DNA from: Chitinophaga ginsengisegetis
GTDB lineage: Bacteria; Bacteroidota; Bacteroidia; Chitinophagales; Chitinophagaceae
Direction of reading: 5' to 3'
Length of the DNA: 64,000 nt
Assembly (NCBI RefSeq): GCF_900168065.1
Contig: NZ_FUZZ01000006.1
Span: forward strand, 248,001 to 312,000
Under the pieces are notes generated by a model, which searched no databases, was not told the origin of the DNA, and saw nothing but the letters and a program-made list of their open reading frames with translations. Of this stretch, positions 57,274 to 64,000 are shown piece by piece (position 1 is the first letter of the stretch; each line of letters starts with the position of its first letter). A program made the translations under genes and the position numbers.

Positions 57274-59655
57274 TTAGAACTTGAAGTTATATGTGATACC
57301 AGGGATAATAGAGCCTATGATAGACAGGCGTACTGCTTCCCGTTTGGTAGGATCATCGTCGTTTTGTTTAAAGTAGATGGTGTAGGCATTTCTGCGGCCA
57401 TATACGTTATACAGTGAGAATACCCATTCTCCTTTCCAGCGTTTCAGCTGTTTGCCTTTCAGTGTCATAGACAGATCCAGTCTGTGATATGCCGGCAGTC
57501 GGTAGTTGTTGCGTTTCTCGGTACTGTTGTAAGGAATGTCCCAGTCCTGGAATTCCAGCCTGTTATCCGCGAAAGTTCCCGGTGTGCCGGAGGCGAATAC
57601 CCAGTTGGCCGACAGGGAGGTACGTTTCGTGAAAGTATGTGTTAACACCAGGTTCAGGTTGTGGGTGCGGTCGTAACGGTTCAGGAACCATTCATCCATA
57701 CTGATACCGATGGTTTTTCTTTCTGTGCGTGACAGCGTATAGCTTACCCAACCGGTAGTTTTGCCGATATCTTTTTTCGCATAGAGTTCCAGTCCATATG
57801 CACGTCCCTGGGAAGGCAGCAGATCTGCTTCGATAAGAGGGTTCAGCTGCAGGTTGGCGTTGTCGATGTAATCCAGCTGGTTGTCGGTGGTTTTATAAAA
57901 CACTTCGGCCGACAGTTCGTAGGCATCATTAGGCGCATTGTAAAAGTAGCCTGCGGTATACTGGTCAGACACCATTGGTTTGATATTGTTGGTGCTGGGC
58001 GTCCAGATATCCAGGGGAGTAGGGGATGCGGTGTTGGACAGCTGGTGCATGAACTGTGTAGTTCTGCTATAGGCCAGCTTCACGGCGTGTTCGTCTGTAA
58101 ACGCATATCGGGCACTGATCCTGGGTTCGAAGTAATAGTAGCCTTTGATCAGGTCATTGCCATTGTAGTCTTTGCTGCCTATTAACCGCTTACGGATGCC
58201 TGGTGTGGTATCATTAAAATAGTAGGCAGTTCCTTTACCGATGAACTGATAGGCAGATAAACGGCCTCCGTACTGAATCCCGAATTTCTTTGTTGGTTTA
58301 AATTCATGATCCAGGTATACGGCTGATTCCAGTGCGTGCTGATCATTAATTTGTTTAACGTGTTTAAGTGATCCTTCCGTGCTGGTACCTGTACCTGGTT
58401 TAAAGGTGTAATAGATGCCTTGTACCCCGAAATGCAGGCTGTTGGCGGCATTGATGTAATAGGTGAAGGAAGGTTTTACACCGTAGTTGATAATGTTAGA
58501 TGTCCAGTCGTATCCCTGTGAATCTTCATTGGTTGCTTTCTTGGAATCGTTGCTGAACTTCAGGCTGTAATCATACTTACTATAATAAGTAGTAAAGTTC
58601 ATGAACAGGCGGTTGGTGAATACGTGGTTCCATCTTACGGTGGCAGTAGTGTTGCCCCAGTTCATGTTTATATCTTTTCCAAAACCAAAAACGTCTCTGC
58701 CAAAATAACCGCTTACAAACAAGGAGTTATTTTTATTGAATTTGTAGTTGGCTTTGGCGGTGAGATCGTAGAAATTGAGCTTGGTATCTTTCATATCTCC
58801 CTTTACAAAAGGTTTCATCAGGATATCTATGTAAGATCTTCTGGCGGCCACTATAAAGGAGGATTTATCCTTTACCAGCGGGCCTTCCACCGACAGGCGG
58901 CTGAAGATGTTACCGATACCGCCGTTTACGTTGAAGTCCTGGTTGTTACCATCTTTCATACGGATATCCAATACGGAAGAAGTTCTGCCACCGTATTCAG
59001 CGGGGAAGCCACCTTTGATGAGGTTGAGGCTTTTAACGGCATCCGGGTTGAATACAGAGAAGAAGCCAAGCATGTGGGTGGAGTTGTATACAGGCGCTTC
59101 ATCCAGGAGGATGAGGTTTTCATCGCTGTTGCCACCGCGTACGTTAAAGCCGGAAGCGCCTTCACCAACGGTGTTAACACCGGGGAGGGTCTGGATGGCC
59201 CGCAGTACATCTACCTCACCCATGAAGGTGGGCATCTTTTTCATTTGCTGTATATCCAGTTTGTTGATGCTGGTATTCAGGGTATTAACGGTCCGTTCCT
59301 GTTTCTGGCCGTTAACGGTTACTACGTTCAGCTGGCTGCTGGTGGCTTCCATGCTTACATCGAGTGTAACGTTCTTTCTCAGGTTAACGGTTGTTTTATA
59401 GGTACCGTAGCCCATATAAGAGAACTGCAGTTCGTGTTCTCCGGCCGGAAGCGTAAGGGAATAAAATCCGTATTGGTTACTCACGGTACCCAGACTGGTG
59501 CCGCTTTTGCCAATGGAAATGCCTACCAGGCTTTCCCCGTTTTTCTTGTCTTTTACATAGCCGCTTACGGTATATCGTTGCTGCTGTGCGGTTGCTGATT
59601 GTCCTGCGAGGATCAAAATGAGCAGAGACAGCAACATGGTTGCCTTAGTTTTCAT
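57274..59655 (-). CDS. TonB-dependent receptor with carboxypeptidase-regulatory N-domain
   Basis: 793 residues from ATG 59655 (MKTKATMLLSLLILILAGQSATAQ, signal peptide). CarboxypepD_reg-like domain: VSGYVKDKKNGESLVGISIGKSGTSLGTVSNQYGFYSL. Plug: MPTFMGEVDVLRAIQTLPGVNTVGEGASGFNVRGGNSDENLILLDEAPVYN (in parts). A 22-strand-type barrel follows, ending GIIYNFKF-like (GITYNFKF) with a terminal Phe for BAM recognition. Imports an unknown large nutrient with energy from TonB. Confidence 0.94.
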   Translation of the reverse strand: MKTKATMLLSLLILILAGQSATAQQQRYTVSGYVKDKKNGESLVGISIGKSGTSLGTVSNQYGFYSLTLPAGEHELQFSYMGYGTYKTTVNLRKNVTLDVSMEATSSQLNVVTVNGQKQERTVNTLNTSINKLDIQQMKKMPTFMGEVDVLRAIQTLPGVNTVGEGASGFNVRGGNSDENLILLDEAPVYNSTHMLGFFSVFNPDAVKSLNLIKGGFPAEYGGRTSSVLDIRMKDGNNQDFNVNGGIGNIFSRLSVEGPLVKDKSSFIVAARRSYIDILMKPFVKGDMKDTKLNFYDLTAKANYKFNKNNSLFVSGYFGRDVFGFGKDINMNWGNTTATVRWNHVFTNRLFMNFTTYYSKYDYSLKFSNDSKKATNEDSQGYDWTSNIINYGVKPSFTYYINAANSLHFGVQGIYYTFKPGTGTSTEGSLKHVKQINDQHALESAVYLDHEFKPTKKFGIQYGGRLSAYQFIGKGTAYYFNDTTPGIRKRLIGSKDYNGNDLIKGYYYFEPRISARYAFTDEHAVKLAYSRTTQFMHQLSNTASPTPLDIWTPSTNNIKPMVSDQYTAGYFYNAPNDAYELSAEVFYKTTDNQLDYIDNANLQLNPLIEADLLPSQGRAYGLELYAKKDIGKTTGWVSYTLSRTERKTIGISMDEWFLNRYDRTHNLNLVLTHTFTKRTSLSANWVFASGTPGTFADNRLEFQDWDIPYNSTEKRNNYRLPAYHRLDLSMTLKGKQLKRWKGEWVFSLYNVYGRRNAYTIYFKQNDDDPTKREAVRLSIIGSIIPGITYNFKF

Positions 59656-59718
59656 AAAAGTCAGATGCAGTTTTATATTATGTCTGTTGCATTTTTGTTG
59701 CATGCATATAAGACGTTG

Positions 59719-59726
59719 CAAAAATA
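59719..59726 (-). promoter_or_regulatory. Putative -7 element (TATTTTTG) for the TonB receptor operon
   Basis: Fits TAnnTTTG on the minus strand, 64 bp before ATG 59655. The leader contains ATGCAACA twice, 11 bp apart. No -33 TTG. Confidence 0.5.
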
Positions 59727-59790
59727 TGTTACCCCTACGGCGATAAATTATTTTTTTAAATCATAATTGTGTTATAACATGATTTAACGA

Positions 59791-59818
59791 AAAAAGGAAG
59801 GCTCATGCCTTCCTTTTT
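59791..59818 (-). terminator. Terminator of the small HMA-like gene
   Basis: Arms 59791-59802 and 59807-59818 form a 12-bp perfect stem with a 4-base loop; on the minus strand a T-run follows. Confidence 0.9.
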
Positions 59819-59838
59819 CAATAAAATGCAAGCCCCTG

Positions 59839-60051
59839 TTAATCCAGGATGGCACAGTTAAACCCGAGCCGGGTTACAAAATCTATAATAGTTTGTTCTG
59901 CCAATGATTGAGGGCTTACAATGCGTAGTACTTTGTCACAGTCTTCCAGGTCTACGCTACAGGCATTTACGGTAAATTGTGCTGAAATGGCGTCAATCAC
60001 ATTGTTTCTATCCTGAACAGTTGTAATATTGGTACGGAATATTCCCAACAT
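59839..60051 (-). CDS. Small HMA-fold-like protein without the metal motif
   Basis: 70 residues, soluble. The strand-helix pattern (FRTNITTVQDRNNVIDAI, VNACSVDLEDCDKVLRIV, IIDFVTRLGFNCAIL) fits a ferredoxin-like HMA fold with the typical LGF near the end, but the CxxC metal loop is replaced by VQDRNN. Three isolated cysteines remain. Divergent from the AraC gene 110 bp away and closed by its own terminator, so it is a real gene. Function unknown. Confidence 0.72.
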   Translation of the reverse strand: MLGIFRTNITTVQDRNNVIDAISAQFTVNACSVDLEDCDKVLRIVSPQSLAEQTIIDFVTRLGFNCAILD

Positions 60052-60123
60052 AGATGATAATTTTTTTGAGTATTCGGAATATTTTTATGCAAATTTGCTA
60101 CTGTTATCCCATATAACTGTTAC

Positions 60124-60156
60124 ACGAGACGGATTATCAATTATACGAAACGGATT
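60124..60156 (+). promoter_or_regulatory. Two 12-bp direct repeats in front of the AraC gene
   Basis: ACGAGACGGATT at 60124-60135 and ACGAAACGGATT at 60145-60156 differ at one base and start 21 bp apart, two DNA turns. This fits AraC-type half-sites. The second ends 5 bp before the ATG, which suggests autorepression. Confidence 0.65.
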
Positions 60157-60161
60157 TTTTT

Positions 60162-61160
60162 ATGGGCGTAGTTATTACAGATGATGCCAACCAGGTATTG
60201 CTAACGGAAGAAATTCCTTTCGATTACCATAAGATCCGTTCCAGGGGAATGATTGAAGAAACCCAGGAACTGCAAAAGGATTTTGGCTCTGCAACTGTGC
60301 ACGAATATAACTTCGAAGGCACCAGTATTGCCTGTTGCGAGGCACAGGTTTACGAGAATATCCATATTTCTTCGGATTTTATGGAACCCCTGGTGATGCT
60401 CCTGTTCATGGAACAGGGAGATATTACTACCACACTGGGTGGCATTTCAGACAATTTCAGGTTTTCCACACAGGAGCATAATCTTATGTTTAGCCCGGCG
60501 CAAACGGAGACGATAGCGGTAAAGAAGCAGCGGGACATTCACTTTTTGGGCCTGAGCTTTACACCGGCGCGTTTCCTGGAGCTGGCGGAGAATAATGGGC
60601 GGGTGCTGGATGGATTGGCCAATAACGTGGCCGGGAATAAATCCGTTACGCTGGCGGATAAGTATAATCCCCGGATTACTCCCCGTATGAAGATGGTGAT
60701 GGAGGAGGTGCGTCAGTGTAAATTCCAGGGAGGTTTGAAAAAGCTGTTCTTACAGTCGAAAGCTATGGAGTTACTGGCTTTGCAATGTGAGCAGATGGAA
60801 GCGACCCAATCGTCCGGCACGCCTTTACGCAGTAAAATCACTCCGCAGGATGTTGAGAAGCTGTATTACGCGAGGGACCTGGTGATACAGCATGTGCAAC
60901 AGCCACTGAGCCTGGAGGAGTTATCGCGCAAAGCGGGATTGAATGAATTTAAGCTGAAATCAGGCTTTAAAGCCATTTTTGATAATACGGTATTTGGTTA
61001 CTTGAACGACCACCGCCTGGAACTGGCCAGGGAACTGATACAGGGAGGAGATCTGCCCATGTCGCTCATTGCGGAACAGGCAGGGTATTCATCTCCGCAG
61101 CACTTCAGTACTGCTTTCCGTAAGAAATTCGGGATAAGTCCCGGGAAAGTCAGGGGTTAA
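60162..61160 (+). CDS. AraC family transcriptional regulator
   Basis: 332 residues. The C-terminal ~100 residues carry the two-helix-turn-helix AraC domain: LSLEELSRKAGLNEFKLKSGFKAIFDNTVFGYLNDHRLELARELI (in parts) and MSLIAEQAGYSSPQHFSTAFRKKFGISPGKVRG. The N-terminal 220 residues are an uncharacterised effector-binding region. It probably controls itself and the divergent small HMA-like gene. Confidence 0.93.
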   Translation: MGVVITDDANQVLLTEEIPFDYHKIRSRGMIEETQELQKDFGSATVHEYNFEGTSIACCEAQVYENIHISSDFMEPLVMLLFMEQGDITTTLGGISDNFRFSTQEHNLMFSPAQTETIAVKKQRDIHFLGLSFTPARFLELAENNGRVLDGLANNVAGNKSVTLADKYNPRITPRMKMVMEEVRQCKFQGGLKKLFLQSKAMELLALQCEQMEATQSSGTPLRSKITPQDVEKLYYARDLVIQHVQQPLSLEELSRKAGLNEFKLKSGFKAIFDNTVFGYLNDHRLELARELIQGGDLPMSLIAEQAGYSSPQHFSTAFRKKFGISPGKVRG

Positions 61161-61164
61161 AAAT

Positions 61165-61205
61165 AAAAGGGACAGGAGAAACGATTCGTTTCTCCTGTCC
61201 CTTTT
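61165..61205. terminator. Strong two-way terminator
   Basis: Arms 61165-61183 and 61187-61205, 19-bp perfect stem, 3-base loop, A-run and T-run on the outside. Lies between the convergent AraC and NAD(P)-binding genes. Confidence 0.93.
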
Positions 61206-61207
61206 TA

Positions 61208-61837
61208 TTAATACGCCAATGTAAAGCGTTGTTTGATATGTTGCGGCTGTTCCAGTTCATCCAGCAGGGCTACGGCGTAGTCGGCTGAAGAAATTTTACT
61301 CTCTCCTTTATCATTGAATACTACCTGGTTGGTGCCCAAACGGAATTTTCCGGTACGTTCACCTGGTTCTATCATCATAGCCGGGCTTATCACGGTCCAG
61401 TCGAGATCTGTAGATTGTTTAATCACATTGAATGCGTCGCGGGTGGCAGTGGCGCCGCCTTTCCATTCTGCAGGAAATTCCGGTGTATCCAGCAATTGTA
61501 CGCCCGGGGCGATTTCCAGGCTGCCTGCACCACTAACAGCGATCAGCCTTTTGATACCGGATTTTTTGGTAGCATTAATAATGGCGTTGATAGCTTTTAC
61601 GTAGGTGGCGGAGTCGTGGGCGCTGTAGGAGCTGATCACGGCTTCATTGCCAGCCAGCAGTGGTGTTAACTCTGCTTCGTTGGTGGCGTCTCCCTTTTTT
61701 ACAGTAAGATGTGCGTTGGTAACGGTTATCTTTTCCGGGTGACGAACGATAGCGGTAACTTCATGTCCTCTGCTCAGCGCTTCATTTAAAATGGCTGATC
61801 CTATAAATCCGGATGCTCCGATGATGGCAACTTTCAT
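61208..61837 (-). CDS. NAD(P)-binding oxidoreductase-like protein (NmrA/SDR-like, YwnB type)
   Basis: 209 residues. Starts MKVAIIGASGFIGSAILNEALSRGHEV, the GxxGxxG dinucleotide-binding loop of atypical short-chain dehydrogenases, followed by ATNEAELTPLLAGNEAVISSYS and KRLIAVSGAGSLEIAPG. No YxxxK catalytic pair is evident. Likely a NADPH-binding quinone- or stress-related protein. Its promoter is at 61970-61999. Confidence 0.88.
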   Translation of the reverse strand: MKVAIIGASGFIGSAILNEALSRGHEVTAIVRHPEKITVTNAHLTVKKGDATNEAELTPLLAGNEAVISSYSAHDSATYVKAINAIINATKKSGIKRLIAVSGAGSLEIAPGVQLLDTPEFPAEWKGGATATRDAFNVIKQSTDLDWTVISPAMMIEPGERTGKFRLGTNQVVFNDKGESKISSADYAVALLDELEQPQHIKQRFTLAY

Positions 61838-62008
61838 GATTTTTATTTTTTTGTAGTGACTAAATAATACAGCCTGCCCGTGCTGATTGTTCTAATTGTT
61901 AGAAAAAATATTACAGTTTAGGGGATAAAAAAACAGATCCCTTGATCTGTAATAAAAATAATTACAGTACAAAGATAGGGAAGATATTTTAATTACCAAT
62001 TGTTTTTT
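61838..62008. other. Leader of the NAD(P)-binding gene with two dyads
   Basis: About 125 bases of leader after the promoter at 61970-61999. It has a 15-bp palindrome TTCTAA-TTG-TTAGAA at 61890-61904 and a 7-bp hairpin ACAGATC/GATCTGT at 61933-61950. Both could bind a repressor or shape the mRNA. Confidence 0.5.
61970..61999 (-). promoter_or_regulatory. Consensus promoter of the NAD(P)-binding gene
   Basis: On the minus strand TTG at 61999-61997, a spacer of exactly 19 bp and TATCTTTG at 61977-61970. The -33 box is 10 bp from the edge of the 194-bp palindrome. Confidence 0.85.
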
Positions 62009-62202
62009 GCGGATGTTGTCTTTCTCAGGATTAACCCTGATTAAGCTGATTTAGGGATTTGATCACTTTTGATTTAAAAAGATTTGGGGAGATATAAGTG
62101 GTTATACCCGCTTACATCTCCCCAAATCATATACAAAATCCAAAAAGTTAAATCAAGTAAATCACCTTAATCAGGGTTAATCCTGAGAAAGACAACATCC
62201 GC
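62009..62202. repeat. 194-bp palindrome with 37-bp perfect arms (REP/MITE-like)
   Basis: Arms 62009-62045 and 62166-62202 are perfect complements over 37 bp. The inside also pairs in part (GATTTGGGGAGAT at about 62081-62093 with ATCTCCCCAAATC at about 62116-62128), so the whole unit can fold into one long cruciform or RNA hairpin. It starts 6 bp past the hppA stop. There is no T-run on either side, so it is not a standard terminator; a non-autonomous mobile repeat is more likely. Confidence 0.8.
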
Positions 62203-62207
62203 GAATG

Positions 62208-64000
62208 TTATTTCTTTTCTACAAGATAAGCAGTCACCTTGCTGCTTACCGTTTTGGTGGCCGGTTTTACCGTTTCTGTTTTAACAGTAGGAGGAACCGG
62301 TGGTTGTTTGGTATGAAACATCTCCGCCAGGGTAGGCGCAATCACCAATGACACGATAGACATCAGTTTGATGAGGATGTTCATACTCGGGCCGGAAGTA
62401 TCTTTAAACGGATCACCTACGGTATCGCCGGTTACAGATGCTTTATGCGGCTCAGATTTTTTGTAGTAAGTTTCGCCGTTGATTTCCACACCTTTCTCGA
62501 AAGATTTCTTTGCGTTATCCCAGGCGCCACCGGCGTTGTTCTGGAAAATTCCCATCAGCACACCACTAACGGTAGCACCGGCGAGGAACCCGCCCAATAC
62601 TTCCGGACCGGCTATAAAGCCTACCAGCAAAGGAGAGATCAGGGCAATAGCGCCTGGCAGCATCATTTCACGGATAGATGCCTGCGTGGAAATAGCCACA
62701 CATTTATCGTACTCCGGTTTGCCGGTACCTTCCATGATGCCGGGTATTTCGCGGAACTGGCGACGTACTTCTTCCACCATCGCCATTGCTGCACGGCCTA
62801 CCGCCGCAATAGCAAGGGAGGAGAAGATGAACGGGATCATACCGCCCACAAACAAACCTGCCAGTACGTTGGCTTTATAAATGTCGATACCCTGGATACC
62901 AGCCACACCCACAAAGGCAGCAAACAGCGCCAGTGCGGTTAAAGCAGCGGACGCAATGGCAAAACCCTTACCGGTAGCGGCAGTGGTGTTACCTACTGCA
63001 TCGAGGATATCTGTTTTTTCTCTTACTTCTTTAGGGAGTTCACTCATTTCCGCAATACCACCGGCGTTATCGGCAATAGGGCCAAAGGCGTCGATAGCCA
63101 GCTGCATGGCTGTAGTGGCCATCATACCGGCTGCGGCAATGGCAACACCATACAAGCCAGCCAGGTGGAAGGAACCGGCAATACCGGCGGCCAGCACCAG
63201 GATGGGCAGGGTAGTGGATTCCATACCAACAGACAAACCACCAATAATATTGGTAGCCGCCCCGGTAGCAGATTGACGGATAATTGATTTTACCGGGCGT
63301 TTACCCATTGCAGTATAGTATTCTGTGATGATACTGATCAGCGTACCCACTGCCAGTCCTACCATGATGGCGCCGAATACCTGTCCGCGGGTAAATTCAT
63401 GACCGCGTAAGGTCATGGCGCTTTCCGGGAGGATCCAGTTTACCAGGAAATAGGAAACAACGGCTGTTAATATAATAGAACCCCAGTTTCCCATGTTCAG
63501 CGCTTTTTGCACTACGCCGGTATTCAGCCCGGAGCCTTCGCCGATGCGAACAAAGAGGGTTCCGATCATGGAAAAGATGATACCTGCGCCGGCGATGATC
63601 ATTGGCAGCAGGATAGGGGCGATGCCGCCGAATGCGTCATGCGAAACGGTTTCAGAACCCAGCACCATAGTGGCCAATACGGTGGCTACGTATGAACCGA
63701 ACAGATCGGCGCCCATACCGGCTACGTCACCTACGTTATCACCCACGTTATCCGCGATGGTAGCGGGATTCCGGGGATCATCTTCCGGGATGCCGGCTTC
63801 CACTTTACCTACCAGGTCGGCGCCCACATCCGCTGCTTTGGTGTAAATACCGCCACCCACACGGGCAAACAGCGCAATACTTTCTGCACCCAAAGAAAAG
63901 CCGGTAAGCACTTCAATGGTTTTAATCATTTCAGCGGTATTGGCTTCCGCCCCGAAATATGATTTCAGTATAATAAATAAGGAGCCTAATCCGAGAACTG
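62208..64000 (-). CDS. hppA: Membrane-bound sodium/proton-translocating pyrophosphatase, partial
   Basis: The C-terminal ~597 residues are in the window; the start lies past the right edge. It couples pyrophosphate hydrolysis to H+ or Na+ pumping. Family motifs: [56 protein letters not shown] (in parts; binds Mg-PPi), [36 protein letters not shown] and [14 protein letters not shown] with [22 protein letters not shown]. The last feature, DNAKK, has a Lys at the site that separates K+-independent (Lys) from K+-dependent (Ala) enzymes by common rule; that reading is inference. Confidence 0.96.

Follow-up and report, generated by a model that had tools for sequence, protein, structure and literature searches.

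Dispersed long palindromes beside gene ends in Chitinophaga ginsengisegetis: a repeat family with a copy behind hppA

The long palindrome that follows the hppA gene in the analysed window (the whole 64,000-nucleotide stretch of Chitinophaga ginsengisegetis DNA) is a member of a dispersed family and not an RNA element unique to hppA. We consider it fairly probable that this is a family of non-coding long palindromes which spread by a route other than RAYT transposases, whose arms are matched at the DNA level and which act as hairpins at gene ends, for example behind hppA. The family is best read as palindromic repeats of gene ends, similar in kind to REPs and of a separate lineage. Under this proposal, copies would spread and overwrite or replace each other by a non-RAYT route, the arms of the long quasi-palindrome would be kept complementary by template switching or arm-to-arm conversion, and gene ends would be sites that tolerate such hairpins and benefit from them. 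At hppA, the element would take the place that other hairpins, often ordinary terminators, have in relatives.

The window element, a family A copy without strand, covers 194 bp (62009..62202). Its left perfect arm (62009..62045) reads GCGGATG-TTGTCTTTCTCAGGATT... and opens a GATT array with a period of about 9 nt in the consensus, and its right perfect arm (62166..62202) is the reverse complement of the left; a letter-by-letter check bore out the perfect complementarity of these 37-bp arms claimed in the sequence-only reading. The partial pairing suspected further inside is also present, in the form of 70-nt arms with 83% complementarity and, inside them, a 24-nt pair without spacer. The latter corresponds to the inner hairpin (GATTTGGGGAGATATAAG.. 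/ ..CTTACATCTCCCCAAATC, 62081..62128) that an inverted-repeat search and the copy alignment place at the palindrome centre. Folded as RNA, the element reaches -117.9 kcal/mol against -37.2 +/- 4.3 for 200 shuffles (z -19), and folded as DNA it gives a z of -17.7 against shuffles. Rfam returned solely matches below the gathering score for positions 59000-64000 of the window and six loci.

On one side lies the 3' part of hppA (62208..63929, minus strand; H+-pyrophosphatase, PF03030), whose reading frame is still open where the window ends. The stop codon is 5 bp from the palindrome, not 6 bp as first read. On the other side is the downstream neighbour, a gene for an NAD(P)H-binding/NmrA-like protein (61208..61837, minus strand; PF13460 by domain match), preceded by promoter-like boxes TTGG...TATCTTTG (61970..61999, minus strand) of the Bacteroidota type. 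Similar boxes occur in several relatives; a sigma-70 promoter scan called nothing at these Bacteroidota-type boxes. The closeness of palindrome and promoter stands, with a distance to TTGG of about 9 bp by reading instead of 10. As the earlier reading had it, the outer stem has no T-run directly behind it; CTTTTT comes, on the hppA strand, a short gap after the inner hairpin, which is a non-canonical arrangement. The element is probably the hairpin at the 3' end of the hppA mRNA, where it would insulate the promoter of the neighbour. Because T-tracts are weak across the family (at least six T in 10 on 12 of 80 outer sides) and a terminator scan does not call the window element, this 3'-end and insulation role is one that we infer. 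Ahead of the NAD(P)-binding gene, in its leader (61933-61968), a CTGTAAT...ATTACAG inverted repeat shares sequence with an ACAGATC...GATCTGT hairpin, and six T follow that hairpin on the minus strand; the arrangement looks like an attenuator with mutually exclusive folds; a similar leader hairpin with T-run was found by regular expression in 11 of 30 hppA loci, the own locus included.

When the window element was compared with its own 7.93-Mb genome by blastn, 81 matches on both strands fell into 40 places, and five further genomes of the genus were matched. The suggestion of a dispersed repeat family is therewith supported, and the opposite case, a single conserved copy at hppA only, is excluded by some 40 dispersed copies. 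Plasmid and phage copies were not found (blastn, 1e-5). Thirty-five of the 40 copies could be aligned (L033, L044, L046, L047 and L048 were left aside for broken or uncertain boundaries), and these are 174-202 bp long. Family A has sharp GCGG...CCGC ends, and in a related B form the ends are TTGTCTTGGAGCAGG, often with a CGCCTTCGGCG mini-hairpin outside; the aligned copies end in GCGG...CCGC, in variants thereof or in a B-type end. The GGGAGA/TCTCCC of the inner hairpin is nearly invariant among them, as are the GATT blocks, spaced 9, 9 and 8 nt in the consensus. Some forms measure about 140 bp. The end word TTGTCTTNNTCAGGATT, with up to two mismatches, occurs 73+63 times in the genome, compared with 4+2 for a reversed control, and therefore variants must exceed the 40 copies. 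In locus L053 (1501-1978), a B-type element apparently contains remains of an A-type end, which suggests that copies have been nested or overwritten.

Positions relative to called ORFs show that Chitinophaga copies lie mostly beside predicted gene 3' ends and are over-represented between convergent genes. In the own genome, a stop codon stands 0-2 bp before the element at 20 of 40 copies and a called ORF enters the element without a stop at six, with boundaries uncertain for five of the 40, three of them among the 20 abutting a stop. For the 38 copies with both neighbours called (by simple ORF calling without gene check), 15 gaps were convergent, 20 tandem and three divergent. Among the matches listed for four other Chitinophaga species, which amount to 77 distinct elements (n=73 here), 32 were convergent, 33 tandem and eight divergent, compared with 30, 115 and 40 in 185 control gaps. 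This convergent excess (32/73 vs 30/185) gave a Fisher p of 8e-6, and the own copies against the same control a p of 0.003. Converging stops lay 6-9 bp from TTGTC, that is about 0-2 bp from the true end, at 31 of 101 among the matches listed, and as a rough yardstick the first hairpin lies at 0-2 bp for 4 of 73 control stops. No such gene-end bias was seen outside Chitinophaga (1 of 24 convergent, from 32 other elements among the matches listed). Ordinary bacterial 3'-end inverted repeats likewise follow stop codons and are linked to termination, but in the available text of PMC13155455 perfect repeats in bacteria generally peak 50-80 bp past the stop, whereas the present element often begins 0-2 bp after it.

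We compared the hppA loci of relatives. The gene was matched in 79 of 79 genomes of the genus, and 26 of the 30 loci compared contained both hppA and the downstream gene. By reading, a hairpin stands behind hppA in all 26: about 14 are ordinary T-tailed terminators, eight belong to a GCGGACAA...TTGTCCGC group that also has T-runs, and the others are the element of the window itself, an A-like element of short length (L080), a further long palindrome (L082) and locus L087. Since these hairpins are of differing kinds, it is the position that is kept and not the sequence. We also queried genome G038, taken as C. polysaccharea, with one flank of each of 21 own copies, which located 19 places and, together with L001 and L006, gave 21 sites. 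An element-like palindrome or its remains was recognised by eye at 17 of these 21. Ordinary terminators occupy the G038 counterparts in the pairs L005/L149 and L019/L146, where L149 and L146 are anchored on one flank only and rearrangement is possible. A mini-hairpin alone was seen in the pair L014/L141 and a tiny end-to-end hairpin in L007/L142. As to the empty sites that the earlier reading had proposed to look for, copies are present or absent by site at both the hppA loci and the G038 sites. At three G038 loci (L134, L135 and L137) left ends are duplicated or stacked and right ends are fewer, and these stacked ends are perhaps scars of partial copying.

Comparison of copies within and between genomes indicates that they follow the genome more than the site, for which turnover within genomes is the best reading. 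For 11 of the 21 site pairs, picked for usable boundaries and compared with gaps ignored so that identities come out high, the mean identity was 0.852 between orthologous pairs, 0.886 between own paralogues, 0.848 between paralogues within G038 and 0.838 between non-orthologous cross pairs. Nine of the 11 own copies were closer on average to their own paralogues than to their orthologue, with flanks 87% identical, and the end word differed between orthologues in all eight pairs readable on both sides. The end tetranucleotide, i.e. the four free bases after TTGTCT, tends to be species-typical: among the matches listed it was GACT at 28 of 38 ends in C. polysaccharea, TGCC at 40 of 60 in C. hostae and GGCT at 17 of 32 in C. 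vietnamensis, and for C. niastensis it was mixed, with agreeing arms in 8 of 12 and no dominant word. It was equal on both arms in 67 of 77 Chitinophaga elements among the matches listed. In the own genome, the arms matched in 26 of 31 readable copies, and TTCT or TTTT stood at 39 of 65 readable ends.

Mirrored changes in the two arms were examined over the 56 consensus pairs of the alignment. Cells changed on both sides numbered 149 on 27 of the 56 pairs, compared with shuffled means of 40.6 cells and 12.9 pairs, a test that kinship between copies can inflate; a slid-register control reached at most 15 pairs and 41 cells. In 28 of 35 copies, no right arm of another copy matched better than the copy's own. 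The window copy taken alone shows the mirroring: its changed edge AGGATTAACCCTGATTAAG, searched genome-wide with up to two mismatches, gave two matches, both of them its own arms, and the edge is private to this copy because the copy has its own mirrored changes. In 54 of the 56 pairs, double Watson-Crick changes made up 136 cells (75 being of transversion type), with 37 G-U and 69 mismatched cells. As double Watson-Crick changes exceed both other classes, the balance leans towards DNA-level correction over stepwise selection on RNA, and the arms would be kept complementary chiefly at the DNA level, e.g. by template switching. Such correction of quasi-palindromes has reportedly been worked on in E. 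coli too. In the system described in the available text of PMC8604942, polymerase template switching homogenises inverted-repeat arms, which predicts mirrored changes of the kind seen here; in the present case it is proposed for a whole repeat family and not observed as mutations. Correction appears incomplete, since an asymmetry common to the own copies (left TTTGATCAC..., right AAAAAGTAAAATC) persists, and given the 37 G-U cells selection for RNA pairing may contribute.

The strongest competing explanation is that the element is a plain cis-acting RNA, a terminator or 3' stabiliser shaped by RNA-pairing selection and copied by recombination, and not a mobile or self-correcting DNA. The location at gene ends and the strong compensatory change between arms agree with it, as does the fact that relatives have different hairpins, some of them ordinary terminators, at these places. 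We nevertheless regard it as rather unlikely: double Watson-Crick changes far outnumber G-U cells (136 vs 37) and over half of them (75) are of transversion type, T-tracts are weak, species-typical motifs at shared sites require copying between sites, and the nearly invariant GATT blocks exceed what pairing needs.

That the palindrome is a MITE, derived from a DDE-type insertion sequence by internal deletion and mobilised by the transposase of that sequence, is an unlikely alternative to the non-RAYT repeat family. The element shares with MITEs its terminal inverted repeats, its dispersal in many copies and the lack of any coding gene seen, and a longer form of about 570 bp has the same ends around a shared non-coding interior. 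However, it is palindromic nearly throughout, and target-site duplications of lengths 3-9 in 35 copies did not rise above 40 flank permutations; at length 2 the best offset pair gave 26 of 35 against a permuted maximum of 23, a weak excess. Thus, from the earlier suggestion of a MITE, the terminal inverted repeats and high copy number held and the target-site duplication did not. No convincing ORF was found inside two long copies examined (the longest 61 and 63 aa), and no parent transposase was found between the end pairs of the longer copies examined. A search for TTGTCTGAAYCAGGATT end pairs (up to two substitutions) 230-2500 bp apart, over the 108 loci listed, gave one case, with no ORF of at least 60 aa.

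The 440-nt non-coding interior of the long form has at least eight matches in the own genome (L306, L308-L314; 305-441 bases long), a lower bound because scoring stopped at eight candidates per genome, and one match, of 43 bp, in the 78 other genomes of the genus at E<=1e-6. End words on both sides were convincing in three of these eight loci (L306, L310 and L313), and the left end of L311 was doubtful; L306 and L310 coincide with L151 and L152. This interior, framed by palindrome ends in some copies, could be a structured RNA cargo.

GxxExxY (PDDEXK) genes are known from hairpin-framed cassettes, and the arms might be relics of such a cassette. An inverted repeat detected by blastn (E<=0.01) brackets the gene at 22 of 30 GxxExxY loci, and many of these repeats look by eye like CACAGAG-type arrays, but the exact 8-base word TTGTCTGA stood on both sides in none of the 30 and the own genome has no GxxExxY gene at E<=0.001. 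At this stringency a GxxExxY cargo for these arms is ruled out, and we hold the cassette origin very improbable. The GxxExxY loci themselves (L275-L304, Bacteroidota) contain arrays such as CACAGAGTTCACAGAGTTACACAGAG with a period of about 9 nt, many recognised by eye and a few weak or otherwise, which are possibly a second class of array palindromes.

Palindromic repeats in bacteria are often explained by RAYT transposases. The sequence-only reading had likened the edge of the palindrome to RAYT/IS200-mobilised repeats, a likeness that fell away: the edge is private to this copy, and neither a Y1 gene in the genome nor a GTAG or CGTC tag at the aligned ends was found. Y1_Tnp had no match in the own genome at E<=0.001, whereas 5 of 14 control genomes were positive, so that the proposed check for a Y1 (RAYT) transposase came out negative there and in five further family-matching genomes. 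The sixth genome searched (G078, C. vietnamensis by inference) has one Y1 gene, and on either side of it stand tandem CGCCCC/GGGGCG hairpins whose linker contains GTAG (L305, 1250-2150), a candidate RAYT-REP system unrelated to the palindrome studied here. Mobilisation in trans by a Y1 (HUH) transposase, as for REP or BIME, is therefore close to refuted and has a negligible probability in our judgement: dispersed palindromes beside gene 3' ends are typical of REPs, but Y1_Tnp was not found in the own genome and five of six others, the lone Y1 has other flanking repeats, the aligned ends are without GTAG or CGTC tag, and aligned copies are 174-202 bp long and not 20-40.

According to the available parts of PMC3733652, REP/BIME elements with RAYT (GTAG super-family) are also dispersed intergenic palindromes, mostly in convergent or tandem gaps and close to stops, and most conv-REPs of two species lie less than 20 bp from both flanking ORFs. 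In contrast to that REP/BIME-RAYT system (PMC3733652), the Chitinophaga element is about 200 bp long and has no GTAG tag, no RAYT was found in its own genome, and its family exhibits mirrored arm evolution and species-leaning end tetranucleotides. CGTC-tagged REPs, which the same parts of that source place in Bacteroidetes among five phyla, are likewise palindromic repeats without a dedicated transposase; the Chitinophaga element differs from them in a far longer stem, a GATT array with a period of about 9 nt and the lack of a CGTC tag (PMC3733652). Among the papers listed from the non-subscription literature, some of which contain TTGTCTGAA, we saw no description of this palindrome family, which is no proof of absence.

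The family reaches beyond the species. With the window copy as query, 6 of 79 genomes of the genus were matched at E<=1e-5 (own included; G059 weak), and as C. vietnamensis (G078, inferred) was missed by this query and found by pattern, that count is too low. The exact 19-base end gave no match in the genome collection, whereas a free paired-end pattern found at least 108 stretches. Those listed include at least 76 in Chitinophaga, at least 14 in Poribacteria, at least six each in Saprospiraceae and in Pontibacter/Botryobacter, at least two each in Dehalococcoidia and a 'Williamsia' MAG, and at least one each in a Thiotrichaceae MAG and Dolichospermum, some of the MAGs being possibly mis-binned. 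The chance expectation of the pattern is about 0.002 per whole collection, a rough figure that ignores the non-randomness of inverted repeats. Similar end pairs, in which a GGATT array comes after TTGTCTGAAYCAGGATT, are present in Saprospiraceae, Hymenobacteraceae, Poribacteria, Dehalococcoidia and further groups, and outside Chitinophaga the free positions read GAAT or GAAC at 63 of 64 ends among the matches listed. The array and these GAAT/GAAC words appear to be stronger support for relatedness than the chance arithmetic, and common descent of the non-Chitinophaga elements with the Chitinophaga family is likely. More tentatively, we put forward the possible, still doubtful idea that TTGTCTGAAYCAGGATT-type GATT-array hairpins form one class in Bacteroidota, Poribacteria, Chloroflexota and probably others, geneless and spreading, with arms matched at the DNA level and homogenised per genome into the species' own tetranucleotides, which in Chitinophaga would have taken over the terminator position behind stops.

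The picture is of a gene-end family, abundant in genomes that mostly yielded no RAYT, in which the two arms change in step and copies appear to track the genome over the site. The family would make two matters testable, namely the spread of palindromes that lack a transposase and the natural self-correction of long palindromes by template switching. For annotation, this means that a conspicuous hairpin at the end of a gene in these genomes could be a repeat copy instead of a local regulatory RNA.
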